In this document: positions 20,787 to 49,824 of the stretch, in pieces | How the letters are laid out: the number at the start of each line of letters is the position of its first letter | Position numbering within the stretch: position 1 is the stretch's first letter | DNA from: Thermosipho atlanticus DSM 15807 | GTDB lineage: Bacteria > Thermotogota > Thermotogae > Thermotogales > Fervidobacteriaceae | Assembly (NCBI RefSeq): GCF_900129985.1 | Contig: NZ_FQXN01000003.1 | Location: forward strand, 124,001 to 188,000 | Reading direction: 5' to 3' | Length of the DNA stretch: 64,000 nt | The notes under the pieces: model-generated | What the model was told of the DNA's origin: nothing | Seen by the model: only the letters and a program-made list of their open reading frames with translations | Database searches by the model: none | Position numbers and translations under genes: made by a program

Positions 20787-22091
20787 TCACTTAACAATGT
20801 CAATTATTATTTGAGTATTTTTTGGTATATCATCTGAAATTTGATAAGCTTCATTTAATAATTTTAACGCATATTCGATATTACTTTTTTCATTTACGTA
20901 CATTTCAACAATGGGCTCATCTTTGTTGACTCTATCGCCTAATTTTTTGAGAATTTTGAATCCAACAGAATGATCGATTTTGTCCTCCTTTTTTGTACGT
21001 CCTGCACCTAGATAATTGCATGCAATTCCAACTTTTTCAGTATCAATTTTTGAGATATAACCATCTTTATTGGATTTGAAGTGAATGATCTGATTAGATA
21101 TAGGCAAAATGTTCTCAGGATTATCAACCACTTCAGGGTTACCACCTTGTGCTACAACTAAATCTTTGAATTTTTCTAAGGCCTTTCCAGAATATAATGA
21201 ATCTTCTACCATGTTTTTACACTTGTCAATATCACCTAATCCTGCTAAATAACACATCCAAGATGCAAGAGTGATGCATAACTCAACAAATTTCTGTTCA
21301 CCATTGCCTTTAAGAGTATTAATTGCTTCTAATACTTCTAAAGAATTTCCTACAAAAATTCCCAAAGGTTCATCCATATTTGTTAAAACTGCAACTGCTT
21401 CTTTACTATGTGCTTTGGCAATTCCAACCATGGCTTGAGCTAGAGTTTTAGCATCTTCTAGTGTTTTCATAAATGCTCCACTTCCAACTTTTACATCTAA
21501 AACAAAAGCATCAGCACCACCCGCAAGTTTTTTACTCATTATACTTGCAGCAATTAAAGATATTTCATCAACTGTGGCTGTAGCATCACGCAGAGCATAA
21601 ATTTTTTTGTCAGCTGGCGCTAAATTAGCAGTTTGTCCGGCAATAGCTATTCCATATTTATTTACATTTTCGAAAAACTTTTTAAGCGATAGACTAGTTT
21701 TAAAACCTGGTATTGATTCTAATTTATCAATAGTCCCTCCAGTATGTCCAAGGGCTCTTCCGGACATTTTTGCAACAGGAATTCCCAGAGATGCCACTAG
21801 TGGAGCAACGACAAGTGTAGTTTTGTCGCCTACACCTCCAGTAGAATGCTTATCTACTTTTTTTCCTTTTATAGGAGATAAATCAATCACATCACCAGAA
21901 TGTGCCATGATTTCAGTTAAAATTGCTCTTTCTGAATCGTCCATATGTTTGAAATAAATAGCCATGAGAAGGGCAGCCATTTGATAATCAGGAATTTCGC
22001 CGTTTACATAACCCATTATCATATATTCAATTTCTTCTTTTGAAAGTTTTCCACCGTTTCTTTTTTTCAATATTATGTCATATGGTCTCAT
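20787..22091 (-). CDS. pdp: Pyrimidine-nucleoside phosphorylase
   Basis: Phosphorolyses uridine and thymidine to base plus (deoxy)ribose 1-phosphate. The family signature is clear: KVDKHSTGGVGDKTTLVVAP, MSGRALGHTGGTIDKLE, ALRDATATVDEI and SKKLAGGADAFVLDVKVGSGAFM. The 434-residue length is standard for the Firmicute-type Pdp, which accepts uridine and thymidine; a strict thymidine phosphorylase (DeoA) is the alternative. The start ATG overlaps the kinase gene by 14 bp, with AAGGAGG upstream inside that gene. Confidence 0.96.
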   Translation of the reverse strand: MRPYDIILKKRNGGKLSKEEIEYMIMGYVNGEIPDYQMAALLMAIYFKHMDDSERAILTEIMAHSGDVIDLSPIKGKKVDKHSTGGVGDKTTLVVAPLVASLGIPVAKMSGRALGHTGGTIDKLESIPGFKTSLSLKKFFENVNKYGIAIAGQTANLAPADKKIYALRDATATVDEISLIAASIMSKKLAGGADAFVLDVKVGSGAFMKTLEDAKTLAQAMVGIAKAHSKEAVAVLTNMDEPLGIFVGNSLEVLEAINTLKGNGEQKFVELCITLASWMCYLAGLGDIDKCKNMVEDSLYSGKALEKFKDLVVAQGGNPEVVDNPENILPISNQIIHFKSNKDGYISKIDTEKVGIACNYLGAGRTKKEDKIDHSVGFKILKKLGDRVNKDEPIVEMYVNEKSNIEYALKLLNEAYQISDDIPKNTQIIIDIVK

Positions 22092-23349
22092 TTAATTTTT
22101 CCTCCTTGTTTATAGGTAATGTTATTTTAAATGTTGTTCCTACCCCTTCTTTACTGAAAAATTCAATTGTTCCTTTATGATGCTCTACTATTGTTTTTAC
22201 AATAGAAAGCCCCAAACCGGTACCACCTAATTTTCTACTTCTGGCTTTATCAACTCTGTAAAACCTTTCAAATAACCTTTTCTGAGCTTCCTCAGGTATT
22301 CCAACTCCGGTATCTTTCACTTGTACAACAATATTATTTCCTTCTTTATAAGCATCTACTTTTACAATTTTTTCACCTTTTTCTTTTAAAGAAGTATACT
22401 TTATTGCATTATCCACAAGATTCAAAACCATTTGAATTAGTCTATCTTTATCTCCAATTAAAAGTAATTTGTCAGGATAAGTAAATTCAACTTCTACTCC
22501 GTAATCTTCTGCTAAAGGTTCAATTATATGTCTTACATGTTCTAATACTTCGGTGAAATTTATTTCTTCAAATATGAATTGCGAGTTCCCCGATTCAAGT
22601 TTTTCAAGATCTAAGAGATCATTAATTAGTCTAGTCATTCTTGCTGATTCAGATTCAATAATTTTCAAGAATTTTCTAACAATTTCTCTATTTGATAAAT
22701 CATCTTCCAATAGAGCTTCAGCATATCCATGAATAGATGTTAGAGGGGTCCTTAGTTCATGTGAAACATTTGAAATAAATTCTTTACGTACATTTTCAAG
22801 CATTCTTTCGTTGGTTATGTCATGGAGAATTACAATATACCTTTCGTTATTTTCTTCCAAAGTTACCGGAACTATTTTAACTTCATAGTATCTTTTTTCT
22901 CCTTCAATAAATATAGTAATTTCTCCAGATTGTATTTTTTTAGTTTTTGTAGCTTCTTCAAACATTTGATTTACAAAATACTCTTCAAAGACTTCGTAGA
23001 TTTTTCTACCTTCAACACCAGGACGAGTGATTTCTCGAGCAGCAATATTTGCAAAAGTGATAGTTCCATCATTTTTTGCAATAATTATAGGTTCGATTAT
23101 ATTGTTCAATATTGTAAGTTGATTACGCATGGAATGTTCAAGCTCATAGTTTTTCTCTAAGAGTTCGTTAATTTTTTTCCGAACCTTTTCAGAAATGTAT
23201 AGAGGAGGCGCATCAGGATCCTCCTCTATAATTTCAGCTATTCTAAAAATTGATTTTTTCAATGCCGAATTTTCATTAAAAAATTTTTTTAAAAAGTAAA
23301 TGAGTGCAACTATAACTAAAAGTAGAATAATAACAGGGACAAAATTCAT
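22078..23349 (-). CDS. Sensor histidine kinase (PhoR/WalK-like)
   Basis: A membrane-anchored kinase of about 423 residues. One N-terminal membrane segment (about 4-21) is followed directly by a cytoplasmic PAS domain (about 73-175), a HisKA dimerisation domain with phospho-accepting His197 (ISNVSHELRTPLTSIHGY), and an ATPase domain with N box (LVDNAIKYT), DTGVGIP and GGTGLGLSIVK. It lacks an extracytoplasmic sensor domain, so it probably senses an internal or membrane signal. ATG at 23349 is chosen; TTG one codon earlier is possible. The response regulator gene ends 3 bp upstream, so this is a cognate pair. Confidence 0.92.
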   Translation of the reverse strand: MNFVPVIILLLVIVALIYFLKKFFNENSALKKSIFRIAEIIEEDPDAPPLYISEKVRKKINELLEKNYELEHSMRNQLTILNNIIEPIIIAKNDGTITFANIAAREITRPGVEGRKIYEVFEEYFVNQMFEEATKTKKIQSGEITIFIEGEKRYYEVKIVPVTLEENNERYIVILHDITNERMLENVRKEFISNVSHELRTPLTSIHGYAEALLEDDLSNREIVRKFLKIIESESARMTRLINDLLDLEKLESGNSQFIFEEINFTEVLEHVRHIIEPLAEDYGVEVEFTYPDKLLLIGDKDRLIQMVLNLVDNAIKYTSLKEKGEKIVKVDAYKEGNNIVVQVKDTGVGIPEEAQKRLFERFYRVDKARSRKLGGTGLGLSIVKTIVEHHKGTIEFFSKEGVGTTFKITLPINKEEKLNETI

Positions 23350-23352
23350 CAA

Positions 23353-24072
23353 TTATTCTTCCTTTCCGGGATCTCTAAATTTGTAACCTTTTCCTCTAAC
23401 AGTTACAATGTATTTTGGATTTGAAGGATCTTCTTCGATTTTTGTTCTCAATCTTCTAATATGAACATCCACTGTTCTTGTATCTCCAAAATAATCATAA
23501 CCCCATAGTTTGTCAAGCAAGACGTTTCTGGAAAATACTTTACCTTCATTTTCAGCTAAGAATCTCAAAAGATCAAACTCAAGTGGAGTGAGATTGACTT
23601 TTTTCCCTTTAATTTTTACTTCATACTTATCAACGTCAATTTCTAAATCTTTTGCAGTAATTTTTTTGGGTTTTTCTTCTTTTACTTGTGCAGACATTTG
23701 TATGCGTCTAAATACTGCTTTTATTCTAGCAAGAAGTTCTCTAATACTGAAAGGTTTCGTAATATAATCATCTGCACCAAGCTCTAGACCCAAAACTTTA
23801 TCGAATTCTTCTCCTTTAGCACTTAAAAAAATCACGGGAGTAAATTTGTACTTTTCTTGACTTCTAATGTTCCTTACAAAATCAAAACCATCCATACCAG
23901 GTAACATAATATCAACTAAAAACATATCTACATCTTTGTCTTTAATTTCTTCTAAAGCTTTTTCTGCATCTTCAACCGGGATTACTTCGTAGCCTTCCTT
24001 TTCGAGAGTAAAACTAATGAGCTCAAGAATCTCAGGCTGATCATCAATAACCATAATTCTCCTTTTCGCCAT
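23353..24072 (-). CDS. Response regulator, OmpR/PhoB family
   Basis: A 239-residue transcription regulator. The receiver has the acidic pair (IDDQPEI), phospho-acceptor Asp54 (FLVDIMLPGMDGF), and Lys in YITKPFS. The C-terminal winged helix carries VNLTPLEFDLLRFLAENEG and DTRTVDVHIRRLRTKIEED. GAGGAGG precedes the ATG at 24072. It heads the minus-strand run that includes its kinase, nucleoside phosphorylase, apt, pgi and coaE. No phosphate transport genes are nearby, so a Pho role should not be assumed from the similarity. Confidence 0.94.
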   Translation of the reverse strand: MAKRRIMVIDDQPEILELISFTLEKEGYEVIPVEDAEKALEEIKDKDVDMFLVDIMLPGMDGFDFVRNIRSQEKYKFTPVIFLSAKGEEFDKVLGLELGADDYITKPFSIRELLARIKAVFRRIQMSAQVKEEKPKKITAKDLEIDVDKYEVKIKGKKVNLTPLEFDLLRFLAENEGKVFSRNVLLDKLWGYDYFGDTRTVDVHIRRLRTKIEEDPSNPKYIVTVRGKGYKFRDPGKEE

Positions 24073-24125
24073 AAAAAGGCCTCCTCTCAAAATAATTAAA
24101 TTGTTAAATGATATCTTCTTGAAAC

Positions 24126-46169: not shown

Positions 46170-46884
46170 GATAAAAACAGGGATTGAGGGATTAGATGAG
46201 ATTTTATATGGGGGAATTCCGGAAAAAAATGTTGTCTTGTTAAGTGGAGGGCCAGGAACTGGGAAATCGATATTTTCACAACAGTTTTTGTGGTATGGGT
46301 TGCAAAATGGTGAATCAGGAATTTACGTTGCCTTAGAAGAGCATCCCATACAAGTAAGACAAAATATGAAACAGTTTGGATGGGATATTAAGCCTTTTGA
46401 GGAGCAAGGATTATTTGCTATGGTTGATGCTTTTACAGCTGGAGTTGGAAAATCAAAAGAATTTGAAAAGTATATAGTCATGGATTTAACAGATTTAAGG
46501 GATTTTATAGATGTTTTGAGACAAGCAATTAAAGATATTGATGCCAAGCGAGTGGTTATAGATTCAGTAACCACATTGTATTTAAATAAACCAGCTTTTG
46601 CTAGGAATATTATATTACAACTTAAAAGAGTTCTGGCGGGGTTGGGTTGTACTTCCTTATTAGTTAGTCAAATAAGCGTTGATGAGCGAGGATTTGGGGG
46701 GCCTGGTGTTGAACATGGAGTTGATGGAATTATTAGATTAGATTTAGATGAAATTCAAGGTGAATTAAAAAGGACTTTAATAATTTGGAAAATGAGAGGG
46801 ACGAAGCATTCATTGAAAAGACACTCATTTGAAATTACAGAGAATGGAATATTAATAACTAATGGTAGGGAGGTGGTAGGATGA
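46162..46884 (+). CDS. Single-domain KaiC/RadA-like ATPase of archaeal type
   Basis: A 240-residue RecA-fold ATPase. [15 protein letters not shown] leads into Walker A GGPGTGKS (29-36), Walker B is in [10 protein letters not shown], and [11 protein letters not shown] matches the KaiC arginine-finger region. Single-domain KaiC-like proteins are abundant in archaea and often serve signalling or regulatory roles. The ATG at 46162 follows GGGGGGTG; a GTG at 46156 overlaps this site. The gene overlaps reverse gyrase at its start and the HTH gene at its end, so all three are co-translated. It is not a circadian KaiC, because the second domain and the phosphorylation sites are absent. Confidence 0.9.
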
Positions 46885-47309
46885 TACCACTAAATCCCAT
46901 TGGTAGACAAGAAATTCATAAATTGGAAAGTATTCTTTTATTTACTACACTTTTTCGAAAGGAAGTTTTAGCATTAATTAAGGATCCTTCGGAGAGGCTC
47001 ACATGGGTGGATAGCCTTGCTGTTGCTTCAGGAGCTATTGCAAGAGAAAAAGCTGGAATGAGAATTACGGAAATTGCTGAAGAGCTTGGGAGAACTGAGC
47101 AAACAATACGAAAGCATTTAAAGGGAGAAAGCAAAGCAGGACAGCTTGTAAAAGAAACGTATGATTTAATTAAAAGTGGAAAGATTAATGATATTCAAGT
47201 TGACTTTAGCATGCTTATAGAGGAAAACAACAAACTTAAAGAAGAAAATATTAGATTAAAGAATTTACTTAAAGAAATTTATAATAAAATTGATGAGATA
47301 TTGGACTGA
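46881..47309 (+). CDS. HTH transcriptional regulator with C-terminal leucine zipper, archaeal-type
   Basis: A 142-residue protein. After an N-terminal helical region ([18 protein letters not shown]), a helix-turn-helix reads [24 protein letters not shown] (about 60-83). The C-terminus is a heptad-like coiled coil ([19 protein letters not shown]), so a dimer is expected. It resembles predicted archaeal regulators that sit beside KaiC-like genes. Its start overlaps the ATPase stop by 4 bp. Target genes are unknown; the phased GCATA array just downstream is an attractive candidate. Confidence 0.82.
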
Positions 47310-47341
47310 AACTGCGGGGGTTGAAACCCCGCAGTTATTTT
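47310..47341 (+). terminator. Terminator of the reverse gyrase operon
   Basis: AACTGCGGGG (47310-47319) pairs with CCCCGCAGTT (47327-47336) and is followed by ATTTTTAT. The stem overlaps the stop codon. Confidence 0.88.
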
Positions 47342-47346
47342 TATAC

Positions 47347-47402
47347 GCATACTTATGCATACTTATGCATAAAAAAGCATAAATAAGTATAAGATGCATA
47401 AA
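47347..47402. repeat. Array of GCATA direct repeats with a 10-bp period
   Basis: GCAT occurs at 47347, 47357, 47367 and 47377, GTAT at 47387, and GCAT again at 47396, each followed by A and mostly AT-rich 10-mers (two exact copies of GCATACTTAT). Three ATGCAT palindromes are embedded. All copies therefore face the same side of the helix. The array ends 26 bp before the -35 element of the next operon. Confidence 0.75.
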
Positions 47403-47427
47403 ATTACTTAATTTCTAAAAAAATTGG

Positions 47428-47456
47428 TTGATATTTTTAAATTTTTTGGTTATACT
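47428..47456 (+). promoter_or_regulatory. Promoter of the cPGS-like/argF operon
   Basis: TTGATA (47428-47433) and TATACT (47451-47456), exactly 17 bp apart, 43 bp before the ATG. Confidence 0.75.
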
Positions 47457-47498
47457 TTTTATGGCAAACAATATATTAAAGAATTAGGAGGTGTGTTC

Positions 47499-48833
47499 AT
47501 GGCCAAAAAAAGAGTAATTATTATGGGAGCAGCAGGACGCGATTTTCATAATTTCAACACATATTTTAGAGATAATCCTGATTATGAGGTTGTAGCATTT
47601 ACTGCTACACAAATCCCAGATATTGAAGGAAGGGTTTACCCAGCAGAACTTGCTGGAAAATTATATCCAAATGGTATACCAATTGAACCTGAAGAAAAGC
47701 TTGTTGAGCTTATTAAAAAACATAACGTTGATGAAGTTATCTTAGCATACAGTGACCTTCCACATCAATATGTTATGGAAAAAGCAGAAACGGTTCTTGC
47801 TGCTGGAGCAGATTTTAAATTGATGGGTCCAAACAATACGATGATAGAATCAACAAAACCAGTTATTTCTATTTGTGCAATTAGAACAGGCTGTGGAAAG
47901 AGTCAAACTACAAGAAGGGTTTTGGATATATTAAGAGGATTAGGAAAAAAAGTTATTTCTATTAGACATCCAATGCCATATGGTGACCTTGTAGCTCAAA
48001 AAGTTCAGAGATTTGCAGATTATTCAGATCTTGATAAACATAAATGTACAATTGAAGAAAGAGAAGAATATGAACCACATATCGATAGAAATAGTGTAAT
48101 TTATGCTGGTGTTGATTACGAAGCAATTTTAAGAGCAGCTGAAGCTGAAGATCCCGATATTATTCTTTGGGATGGTGGAAATAACGACTTTCCGTTCTAC
48201 AAAACCGATCTCTTGATTACAGTTGTAGATCCTCACAGGGCAGGCCATGAAATTTCATATTATCCTGGTATGGCAAATCTTCTCATGGCTGACGTTATTG
48301 TTATCAACAAAGAAGAAACTGCAAATATCGAAGGTATTGAGCTTGTAAGAAAAAATATTGAAAAGTGGAATCCAAATGCTTTAGTGGTTGATGCAGCTTC
48401 ACCAATATTTGTTGAAGATCCAGAAGCGATTAAGGGAAAAAGAGTGTTAGTAGTTGAAGATGGTCCAACTCTAACCCATGGAGAAATGAGATACGGTGCC
48501 GGATATGTTGCAGCAAAGAAATTTGGAGCTGCAGAAATTATTGATCCAAGGCCATTTGCTGTAGGTTCTATTATTGAGACATATAAGAAATATTCTCACT
48601 TGGATAGTATCCTCCCAGCAATGGGATATGGCGAAAAACAAATGAAAGAATTGGAAGAAACAATTAACAGATCAGATGCTGATCTAGTAATTATTGGTAC
48701 ACCAATAGATTTAAGAAGAGTAGCTAAATTAAATAAACCAGCAGTAAGAATTACGTATGAACTTCAAGAAATAGGAAAACCAAATCTTGAAGATATAATA
48801 AAGGAATTTTTGAGTAAAAAAGGTTTGCTTTAA
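47499..48833 (+). CDS. Cyclic 2,3-diphosphoglycerate synthetase-like GTPase/ATPase
   Basis: A 444-residue P-loop protein. It opens with a Rossmann-like KRVIIMGAAGRDFHNF, and a degenerate P-loop AIRTGCGKSQTTRR lies near 130. VVDPHRAGHE and VVEDGPTLTHGEMRYGAG follow. This architecture matches the family of archaeal cyclic 2,3-diphosphoglycerate synthetase, a thermoprotectant-producing enzyme, and the related COG2403 predicted GTPases. GGAGGTG precedes the ATG at 47499. It is followed by argF. Whether it makes the cyclic phosphoglycerate or acts in carbamoyl phosphate/arginine metabolism cannot be decided from sequence. The pairing with argF favours the latter; the thermophile setting, the former. 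Confidence 0.8.
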   Translation: MAKKRVIIMGAAGRDFHNFNTYFRDNPDYEVVAFTATQIPDIEGRVYPAELAGKLYPNGIPIEPEEKLVELIKKHNVDEVILAYSDLPHQYVMEKAETVLAAGADFKLMGPNNTMIESTKPVISICAIRTGCGKSQTTRRVLDILRGLGKKVISIRHPMPYGDLVAQKVQRFADYSDLDKHKCTIEEREEYEPHIDRNSVIYAGVDYEAILRAAEAEDPDIILWDGGNNDFPFYKTDLLITVVDPHRAGHEISYYPGMANLLMADVIVINKEETANIEGIELVRKNIEKWNPNALVVDAASPIFVEDPEAIKGKRVLVVEDGPTLTHGEMRYGAGYVAAKKFGAAEIIDPRPFAVGSIIETYKKYSHLDSILPAMGYGEKQMKELEETINRSDADLVIIGTPIDLRRVAKLNKPAVRITYELQEIGKPNLEDIIKEFLSKKGLL

Positions 48834-48839
48834 AATAAA

Positions 48840-48863
48840 TTAGCGGGGATTGTTCCCCGCTAA
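48840..48863 (+). other. Intercistronic hairpin between the cPGS-like gene and argF
   Basis: TTAGCGGGGA pairs perfectly with TCCCCGCTAA over a TTGT loop; the tail CTTTTAAG is a weak T tract. It may be a partial terminator or an mRNA-end stabiliser ahead of argF, whose start is 22 bp later. Confidence 0.7.
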
Positions 48864-48885: not shown

Positions 48886-49824
48886 ATGGGAATGAATTTA
48901 AAGGGAAGGTCTCTACTTACATTATTAGATTACACTCCCGATGAAATTAATTATTTGCTTGGATTAGCAAAGACATGTAAAGCTGATAGTAGAGCTGGTA
49001 TTGTGCATCAAAGGTTTAAAGGAAAAACTCTTGCGATGATTTTTGAGAAAAGATCTACAAGAACAAGAGTTGCATTTGAAACTGCTTTTGGCGAAGAAGG
49101 AGGCCATCCACTCTTCTTATCTACCCAAGATATTCAACTTGGTGCAAAAGAATCAATAGAAGATACAGCTAGAGTTTTAGGTAGAATGGTTGATGCAATT
49201 ATGTTTAGAGGTTTTAAACAAGAAACTGTCGAAATATTGGCCAAGTATTCAGGTGTGCCTGTTTATAATGCATTAACTGATTTGTATCACCCAACGCAGG
49301 TTTTAGCTGACCTTATGACTATTGAAGAAAATTTCGGAAAATTACGAGGAATAAAAATGGTATTTATGGGTGATGGAAGAAATAATATGGCAAATTCATT
49401 GATGATTGGTTCAGCAAAGATGGGACTTCATTACGTAATTTGTTCCCCTGAGGAATTAAGGCCAAATGAAGAGCTGGTAAAAAAATGTTTAGAAATAGCA
49501 AAAGATACAGGTGCAAAAATCGAGTTTACAGATAATGTTGATGAAGCAGTAAAAGGTGCAGATGTTATATATACAGATGTTTGGGCTTCAATGGGTGAAG
49601 AAAGCAAAGCAGAAGAGAGAAGAAAATTGTTGATGCCTTATCAAGTCAATGAAAAGGTAATGGAAAAAACTGGAAAATCAGAAACGATTTTTATGCATTG
49701 TTTGCCAGCGGTAAAAGGTGAAGAGGTTACATTTGATGTAATTGAAGGAAATCAAAGTAAAGTTTGGGACGAAGCTGAAAATAGGAAACATACTATTAAA
49801 GCTTTAATGCTTGCAACAATATAA
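48886..49824 (+). CDS. argF: Ornithine carbamoyltransferase
   Basis: Transfers the carbamoyl group from carbamoyl phosphate to ornithine, giving citrulline, or runs in reverse in arginine fermentation. The 312-residue enzyme has the carbamoyl-phosphate site STRTR (57-61), the ornithine-side FMHCLPA and the DVWASMGEE loop. GCAGGAGGGG precedes the ATG. No other arg genes are adjacent; only the cPGS-like gene precedes it. The anabolic (ArgF) or catabolic (ArcB) role cannot be told. Confidence 0.95.
   Translation: MGMNLKGRSLLTLLDYTPDEINYLLGLAKTCKADSRAGIVHQRFKGKTLAMIFEKRSTRTRVAFETAFGEEGGHPLFLSTQDIQLGAKESIEDTARVLGRMVDAIMFRGFKQETVEILAKYSGVPVYNALTDLYHPTQVLADLMTIEENFGKLRGIKMVFMGDGRNNMANSLMIGSAKMGLHYVICSPEELRPNEELVKKCLEIAKDTGAKIEFTDNVDEAVKGADVIYTDVWASMGEESKAEERRKLLMPYQVNEKVMEKTGKSETIFMHCLPAVKGEEVTFDVIEGNQSKVWDEAENRKHTIKALMLATI

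Follow-up and report, generated by a model that had tools for sequence, protein, structure and literature searches.

A tandem GCATAC array as the putative operator of an arginine/ornithine-catabolism regulon in Thermotogota

Organization of the Control Region

The window analyzed here is a 64,000-nt stretch of the Thermosipho atlanticus DSM 15807 genome, in which the terminator, repeat array, promoter, and genes of the locus all lie on the forward strand. The 5′ border of the control region is formed by an intrinsic terminator (47310–47336), found by folding, in which a T-rich run comes after a 10-bp stem (−20 kcal/mol, z −5.3). It belongs to an operon encoding reverse gyrase, a KaiC-like ATPase, and a near-KaiC HTH protein of 142 residues (46881–47309), the last assigned by a profile match to TIGR03879. 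The putative tandem operator array (47347–47401), of the distal, GCATAC-oriented type described below, is followed by a predicted promoter, TTGATA-17-TATACT (47428–47456), whose sequence and phase recur in relatives, and which is located 36 bp from the end of the fifth array unit and 46 bp from the last exact in-register unit. Transcription would start at about 47463, upstream of a ribosome-binding site recognized by its sequence, AGGAGG (47488–47493), and of the ATG at 47499.

The first gene of the putatively controlled unit encodes a cPGS-like P-loop protein of 444 residues (47499–48833), for which no matching Pfam or NCBIfam model was found. Proteins 65–94% identical to it are present in archaea, Chloroflexi, Calditrichota, and Firmicutes MAGs, and in at least two cases from other phyla the gene adjoins argF. 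The second gene is argF, encoding ornithine carbamoyltransferase (48886–49824; TIGR00658, 9e-138). The gap between the two genes contains a strong hairpin (48840–48863), part of a −19 kcal/mol fold, which could act as an internal terminator or attenuator.

The array was detected by pattern search and by TRF, and consists of the units GCATACTTAT (47347), GCATACTTAT (47357), GCATAAAAAA (47367), GCATAAATAA (47377), GTATAAGAT (47387), and GCATAAAATT (47396). The leading pentamer is GCATA at 47347, 47357, 47367, 47377, and 47396, and GTATA at 47387. A preliminary description of this DNA had reported six boxes at an exact 10-bp period, free of coding content, between a terminator and a well-spaced promoter. 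The six boxes are present where they had been placed, no open frame occurs in the array itself, and the flanking elements are the hairpin and the TTGATA-17-TATACT promoter given above. The exact period, however, applies to five of the six boxes, since the first five units follow one another at exactly 10 bp and the sixth begins 9 bp after the fifth. TRF returned a 10-bp period at 47347–47371 and 47367–47403. When the whole window was searched for GCATAN5GCATAN5GCATA with up to two mismatches, five matches were obtained, all at the array, compared to 0.10 expected; none of the shuffled controls reached five.

Conservation of the Array at the cPGS-Like Gene

Direct repeats of GCATACnnnn with a 10-bp period precede the orthologous cPGS-like gene in Thermosipho, Fervidobacterium, Pseudothermotoga, Kosmotogaceae, and relatives of Mesoaciditoga, where the array has the opposite orientation (the genus names of the compared genomes being inferred from closest named matches and kinship labels). 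Upstream of this gene, three GCATAN5 units scored 13–15 out of 15 in most relatives and 12 in a few, whereas other periods (7–14 bp) scored about 8–12. The array, sought at the same locus in relatives, was thus kept together with its 10-bp period, rather than being lost or aperiodic, and it appears to be common to most families of Thermotogota. No array was found upstream of cPGS-like homologs outside the phylum, where scores did not exceed 11/15. Some Thermotogota possess the cPGS-like gene without the array, including a few in which the gene closely follows other genes. A tRNA-Arg (CCG) gene lies directly 5′ of the cPGS-like gene in some array-free Thermotogaceae (L048:5900-5974, L039:2687-2761).

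The genes upstream of the array vary from genus to genus, indicating that proximity to the reverse gyrase/KaiC-like operon is a local circumstance; the topology-linked switch, considered conceivable earlier from the contents of that operon, finds no support. The related proposal, that the near-KaiC HTH protein binds the array and ties the switch to reverse gyrase, draws on the position of its gene just 5′ of the array in Thermosipho. However, the TIGR03879 family has no member in array-bearing Fervidobacterium (g3), G006, G010, G014, Pseudothermotoga g6, G046, G050, G056, and G058, and is present in array-free Thermotoga, a distribution that led us to reject this protein as the binder, with hardly any probability left to it. 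In Thermotoga, about 1 kb separates the gene for this HTH protein from ArgR (L113 region, G029:C1:544984-546395).

The conserved sequences also bear on the idea that the array might represent mere intrinsic curvature, an UP element, or a transcribed hairpin. The Thermosipho array is AT-rich, and its single strand folds well (z −4.7). However, units in GC-richer relatives keep GCATAC without A-tracts, and the arrays of six relatives gave weak folds, or folds no better than those of shuffled sequences, with no fold in common; curvature and an RNA hairpin are disfavored on these grounds. The position of the array 5′ of the promoter is a further point against this group of explanations, which as a whole is improbable.

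Related Arrays at Arginine and Ornithine Genes

A search of 61 Thermotogota genomes, allowing one mismatch to the pattern, gave approximately 80 matches in 33 genomes, compared to approximately eight for a reversed control. In addition to the cPGS-like gene, conserved sites precede arcA (arginine deiminase, TIGR01078) with an antiporter-like gene; argF-arcC, encoding ornithine carbamoyltransferase and carbamate kinase (TIGR00746); rocD (ornithine aminotransferase, TIGR01885); ord-ortAB, encoding 2,4-diaminopentanoate dehydrogenase and OrtA/OrtB (NF040740, NF040739, NF040741); and dppA-ptb-arcC, encoding D-aminopeptidase, phosphotransbutyrylase, and carbamate kinase. The T. atlanticus genome itself has a second array site upstream of the ord operon (G000:C2:112735-112779) and a weaker one upstream of a PEPCK-like gene. 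The array-bearing genes share one theme, the breakdown of arginine and ornithine; the PEPCK-like targets are weak matches, which counts against the regulon interpretation. A further weak match in T. atlanticus (G000:C3:214194) was discarded, since it is inside a coding sequence and corresponds to a part of the query beyond the array, as were matches in G023:C28, G052:C2, G007:C3, and G012:C6, which are within coding sequences or have no plausible target, and appear to be chance matches. The open-access papers searched contained no description of the motif or the regulon, and an arginine/ornithine-catabolism regulon of this kind has apparently not been described before.

The array is located between divergent arcA and argF-arcC in two genomes (G012 and G007), and in these a Crp/Fnr-family gene adjoins arcA (L333:2028-4247, L334). 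In Pseudothermotoga, the ornithine aminotransferase promoter is separated from the GCATAC array by a second array of 10-bp direct repeats, of AGATTGCCAA type (L209:2986-3035; also L210 and L223), which shares the 10-bp register of the GCATAC array.

Alignment of 143 exact units gave the consensus R-A-GCATAC-T-N-R-A. Positions that were not used in the search were also conserved, with C at position 6 in 76% of units, a purine at position 9 in 89%, and G never found at position 10. The unit AGCATACT is a near-palindrome, and could therefore be read either by a protein binding head to tail or by one that binds each box symmetrically.

Helical Phase Relative to Predicted Promoters

The placement of the arrays was compared with that of promoters in 60 non-redundant array-bearing regions upstream of seven genes, using a promoter scan that was fixed before the phase was inspected; the −35 boxes are predicted ones rather than mapped starts. 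The last exact unit was found 5 to 94 bp from the predicted −35 box, and this distance, taken modulo 10, was 5, 6, or 7 in 58 of the 60 regions; the remaining two gave 4 or 8. Two layouts were observed. In the first, GCATAC reads toward the gene and lies 46–86 bp from the predicted −35 box, and in the second, the units have the GTATGC orientation and lie 5–16 bp from it, with one longer case, the arcA gene of G007, at 94 bp. The phase concentration, averaged by gene and orientation (10 groups), was R = 0.80, whereas scrambled promoter motifs averaged 0.22 and peaked at 0.59, with none of 142 reaching the real value. Some of the variation in distance within a gene may reflect decay of promoter-proximal units, each lost unit shifting the distance by 10 even if no indel has occurred. 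More weight therefore attaches to the consistency of phase from gene to gene and from one orientation to the other, and it is the agreement among the 10 groups, rather than the full set of 60 regions, that counts as independent.

With these distances, the nearest exact unit would be approximately 80–120 bp 5′ of the transcription start in the distal type, and approximately 44–54 bp in the proximal type. Distal and proximal distances of this size are those at which class I and class II activators, respectively, bind. The distance pattern is consistent with an activator that binds a single DNA face, and the upstream position suggests activation, although distal repressor loops exist.

Candidate DNA-Binding Proteins

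None of the controlled operons includes a regulator gene, no regulator gene carries the array itself, and no autoregulated one, small ORFs included, was seen adjoining any array. Candidate binders were judged by site architecture and by their distribution among genomes. An OmpR/PhoB-type winged-helix response regulator, bound head to tail to tandem 10-bp half-sites in the manner of OmpR and ArcA, is a possible, if tentative, candidate. OmpR binds tandem 10-bp half-sites (PMC7380067), and ArcA sites consist of two to five direct repeats, approximately one turn apart (PMC3798270). The 10-bp direct repeats found in all arrays have this tandem, one-turn arrangement, and two or more OmpR-family genes were found in each of the array-bearing genomes tested; in Fervidobacterium and a sister genus, one such gene adjoins the cPGS-like gene. 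However, the DNA-binding domain of that group has no close copy in array-bearing Pseudothermotoga, and closer copies occur in array-free lineages; moreover, the array precedes no regulator gene. Also against this candidate, the only OmpR-family group that occurs in all the array-bearing genomes tested has the recognition helix RTVDVHIRRLR, which we take to be shared with E. coli PhoB, and the E. coli PhoB box is TGTCA repeated at 11 bp. The window also encodes a histidine kinase/OmpR-family pair (22078–24090), the DNA-binding helix of the regulator being nearly invariant among the Thermotogota compared, with or without the array.

A ring- or filament-former of the MraZ/AbrB type, or a ribbon-helix-helix protein, might instead occupy one box per turn and wrap the DNA, which we regard as conceivable, with no great confidence. 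The MraZ box of Mollicutes, (AAAGTGKN3)3, places a box of 6–7 bp every 10 bp and is bound by an octamer (PMC5282649). The array has the same architecture, with at least three direct repeats at a 10-bp period upstream of a promoter. Proteins of the MetJ type bind tandem near-palindromic boxes, which the near-palindromic unit resembles. On the other hand, no MraZ, AbrB, or ribbon-helix-helix gene was seen beside any array, even among small ORFs, and a query with an approximate E. coli MraZ sequence gave no match in the array-region loci searched.

The presence of argF among the targets brings ArgR to mind, and the sequence TGCATACTTATGCA (47356–47369) is an exact inverted repeat with the 5-4-5 spacing of an ARG box. 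An ArgR-type operator is nevertheless very unlikely. The ArgR profile (PF01316) is absent from the T. atlanticus genome and exceeded the cut-off in no array-bearing genome searched; matches over the cut-off were confined to g7 and g9, both array-free, with one sub-cut-off match in G006, and the Thermotoga lineage that has ArgR has no arrays. Furthermore, what is retained in other species is the direct repeat GCATACTCGAGCATACGTGAGCATAC without the palindrome, so that conserved palindromic 18-bp boxes are missing.

Two other families were excluded by distribution. BldC-like HTH_17 proteins (PF12728) are absent from T. atlanticus (G000) and from G005, G006, G008, G011, G012, G013, G016, G030, and G056. 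The Crp/Fnr protein encoded beside arcA in G007 and G012 has an ortholog in T. atlanticus, but most array-bearing Pseudothermotoga, as well as G046, lack it. The array might, finally, be served by an undescribed kind of regulator, which would polymerize along DNA at an exact 10-bp step, approach promoters in two mirror-image ways (distal GCATAC and proximal GTATGC), and replace ArgR in most Thermotogota; this is a rather doubtful suggestion.

Proposed Mechanism and Implications

On the cis-acting evidence, the array is probably the operator of a Thermotogota regulon for arginine and ornithine catabolism, and its regulator most likely an activator. The regulator would occupy three to six GCATACnnnn units, one per helical turn, in a cooperative manner along a single face. 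With the regulator and RNA polymerase on the same face, transcription would most likely be activated, at the cPGS-like-argF unit in this locus and at arcA, argF-arcC, rocD, ord-ortAB, and dppA-ptb-arcC elsewhere. Cooperative binding on one helical face, already suggested in the preliminary description, gains strong support from the phylum-wide period, the recurrence of the array at promoters of one pathway, and its phase relative to the predicted promoters. The analysis establishes the array, its conservation, the membership of the regulon, and the phase relative to predicted promoters; from these we infer that a protein binds the array, that it does so cooperatively, that it activates and does not repress, and that it responds to arginine or ornithine.

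These findings would define, from sequence, an ArgR-independent regulon for arginine/ornithine fermentation in a deep-branching phylum of thermophiles, and provide a clear target for finding the missing transcription factor. The distance between array and promoter varies in whole helical turns, offering a natural promoter series with which activation from one face of the helix, and the number of sites required, can be directly tested.

Comparison with Known Systems

Judged by architecture, the nearest published operators are the MraZ box and the direct-repeat arrays of ArcA and OmpR. The MraZ box of Mollicutes likewise repeats a short box at exactly 10 bp, in at least three copies 5′ of a promoter, but differs in box sequence and governs a cell-division cluster rather than amino-acid catabolism. 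ArcA and OmpR sites share the variable number of direct repeats (two to five, approximately one turn apart) and a graded strength, whereas ArcA spacing is 11 bp and no OmpR-family group was found to have a convincing distribution for this array. BldC of Streptomyces binds cooperatively, head to tail, to direct repeats in varying number (PMC5859096), which the array resembles, but HTH_17 is missing from T. atlanticus and from most array-bearing genomes searched. The ArgR regulon also comprises arginine genes, and its 5-4-5 spacing is approached in this species only; here, in contrast, ArgR is absent and it is a direct repeat that has been conserved.
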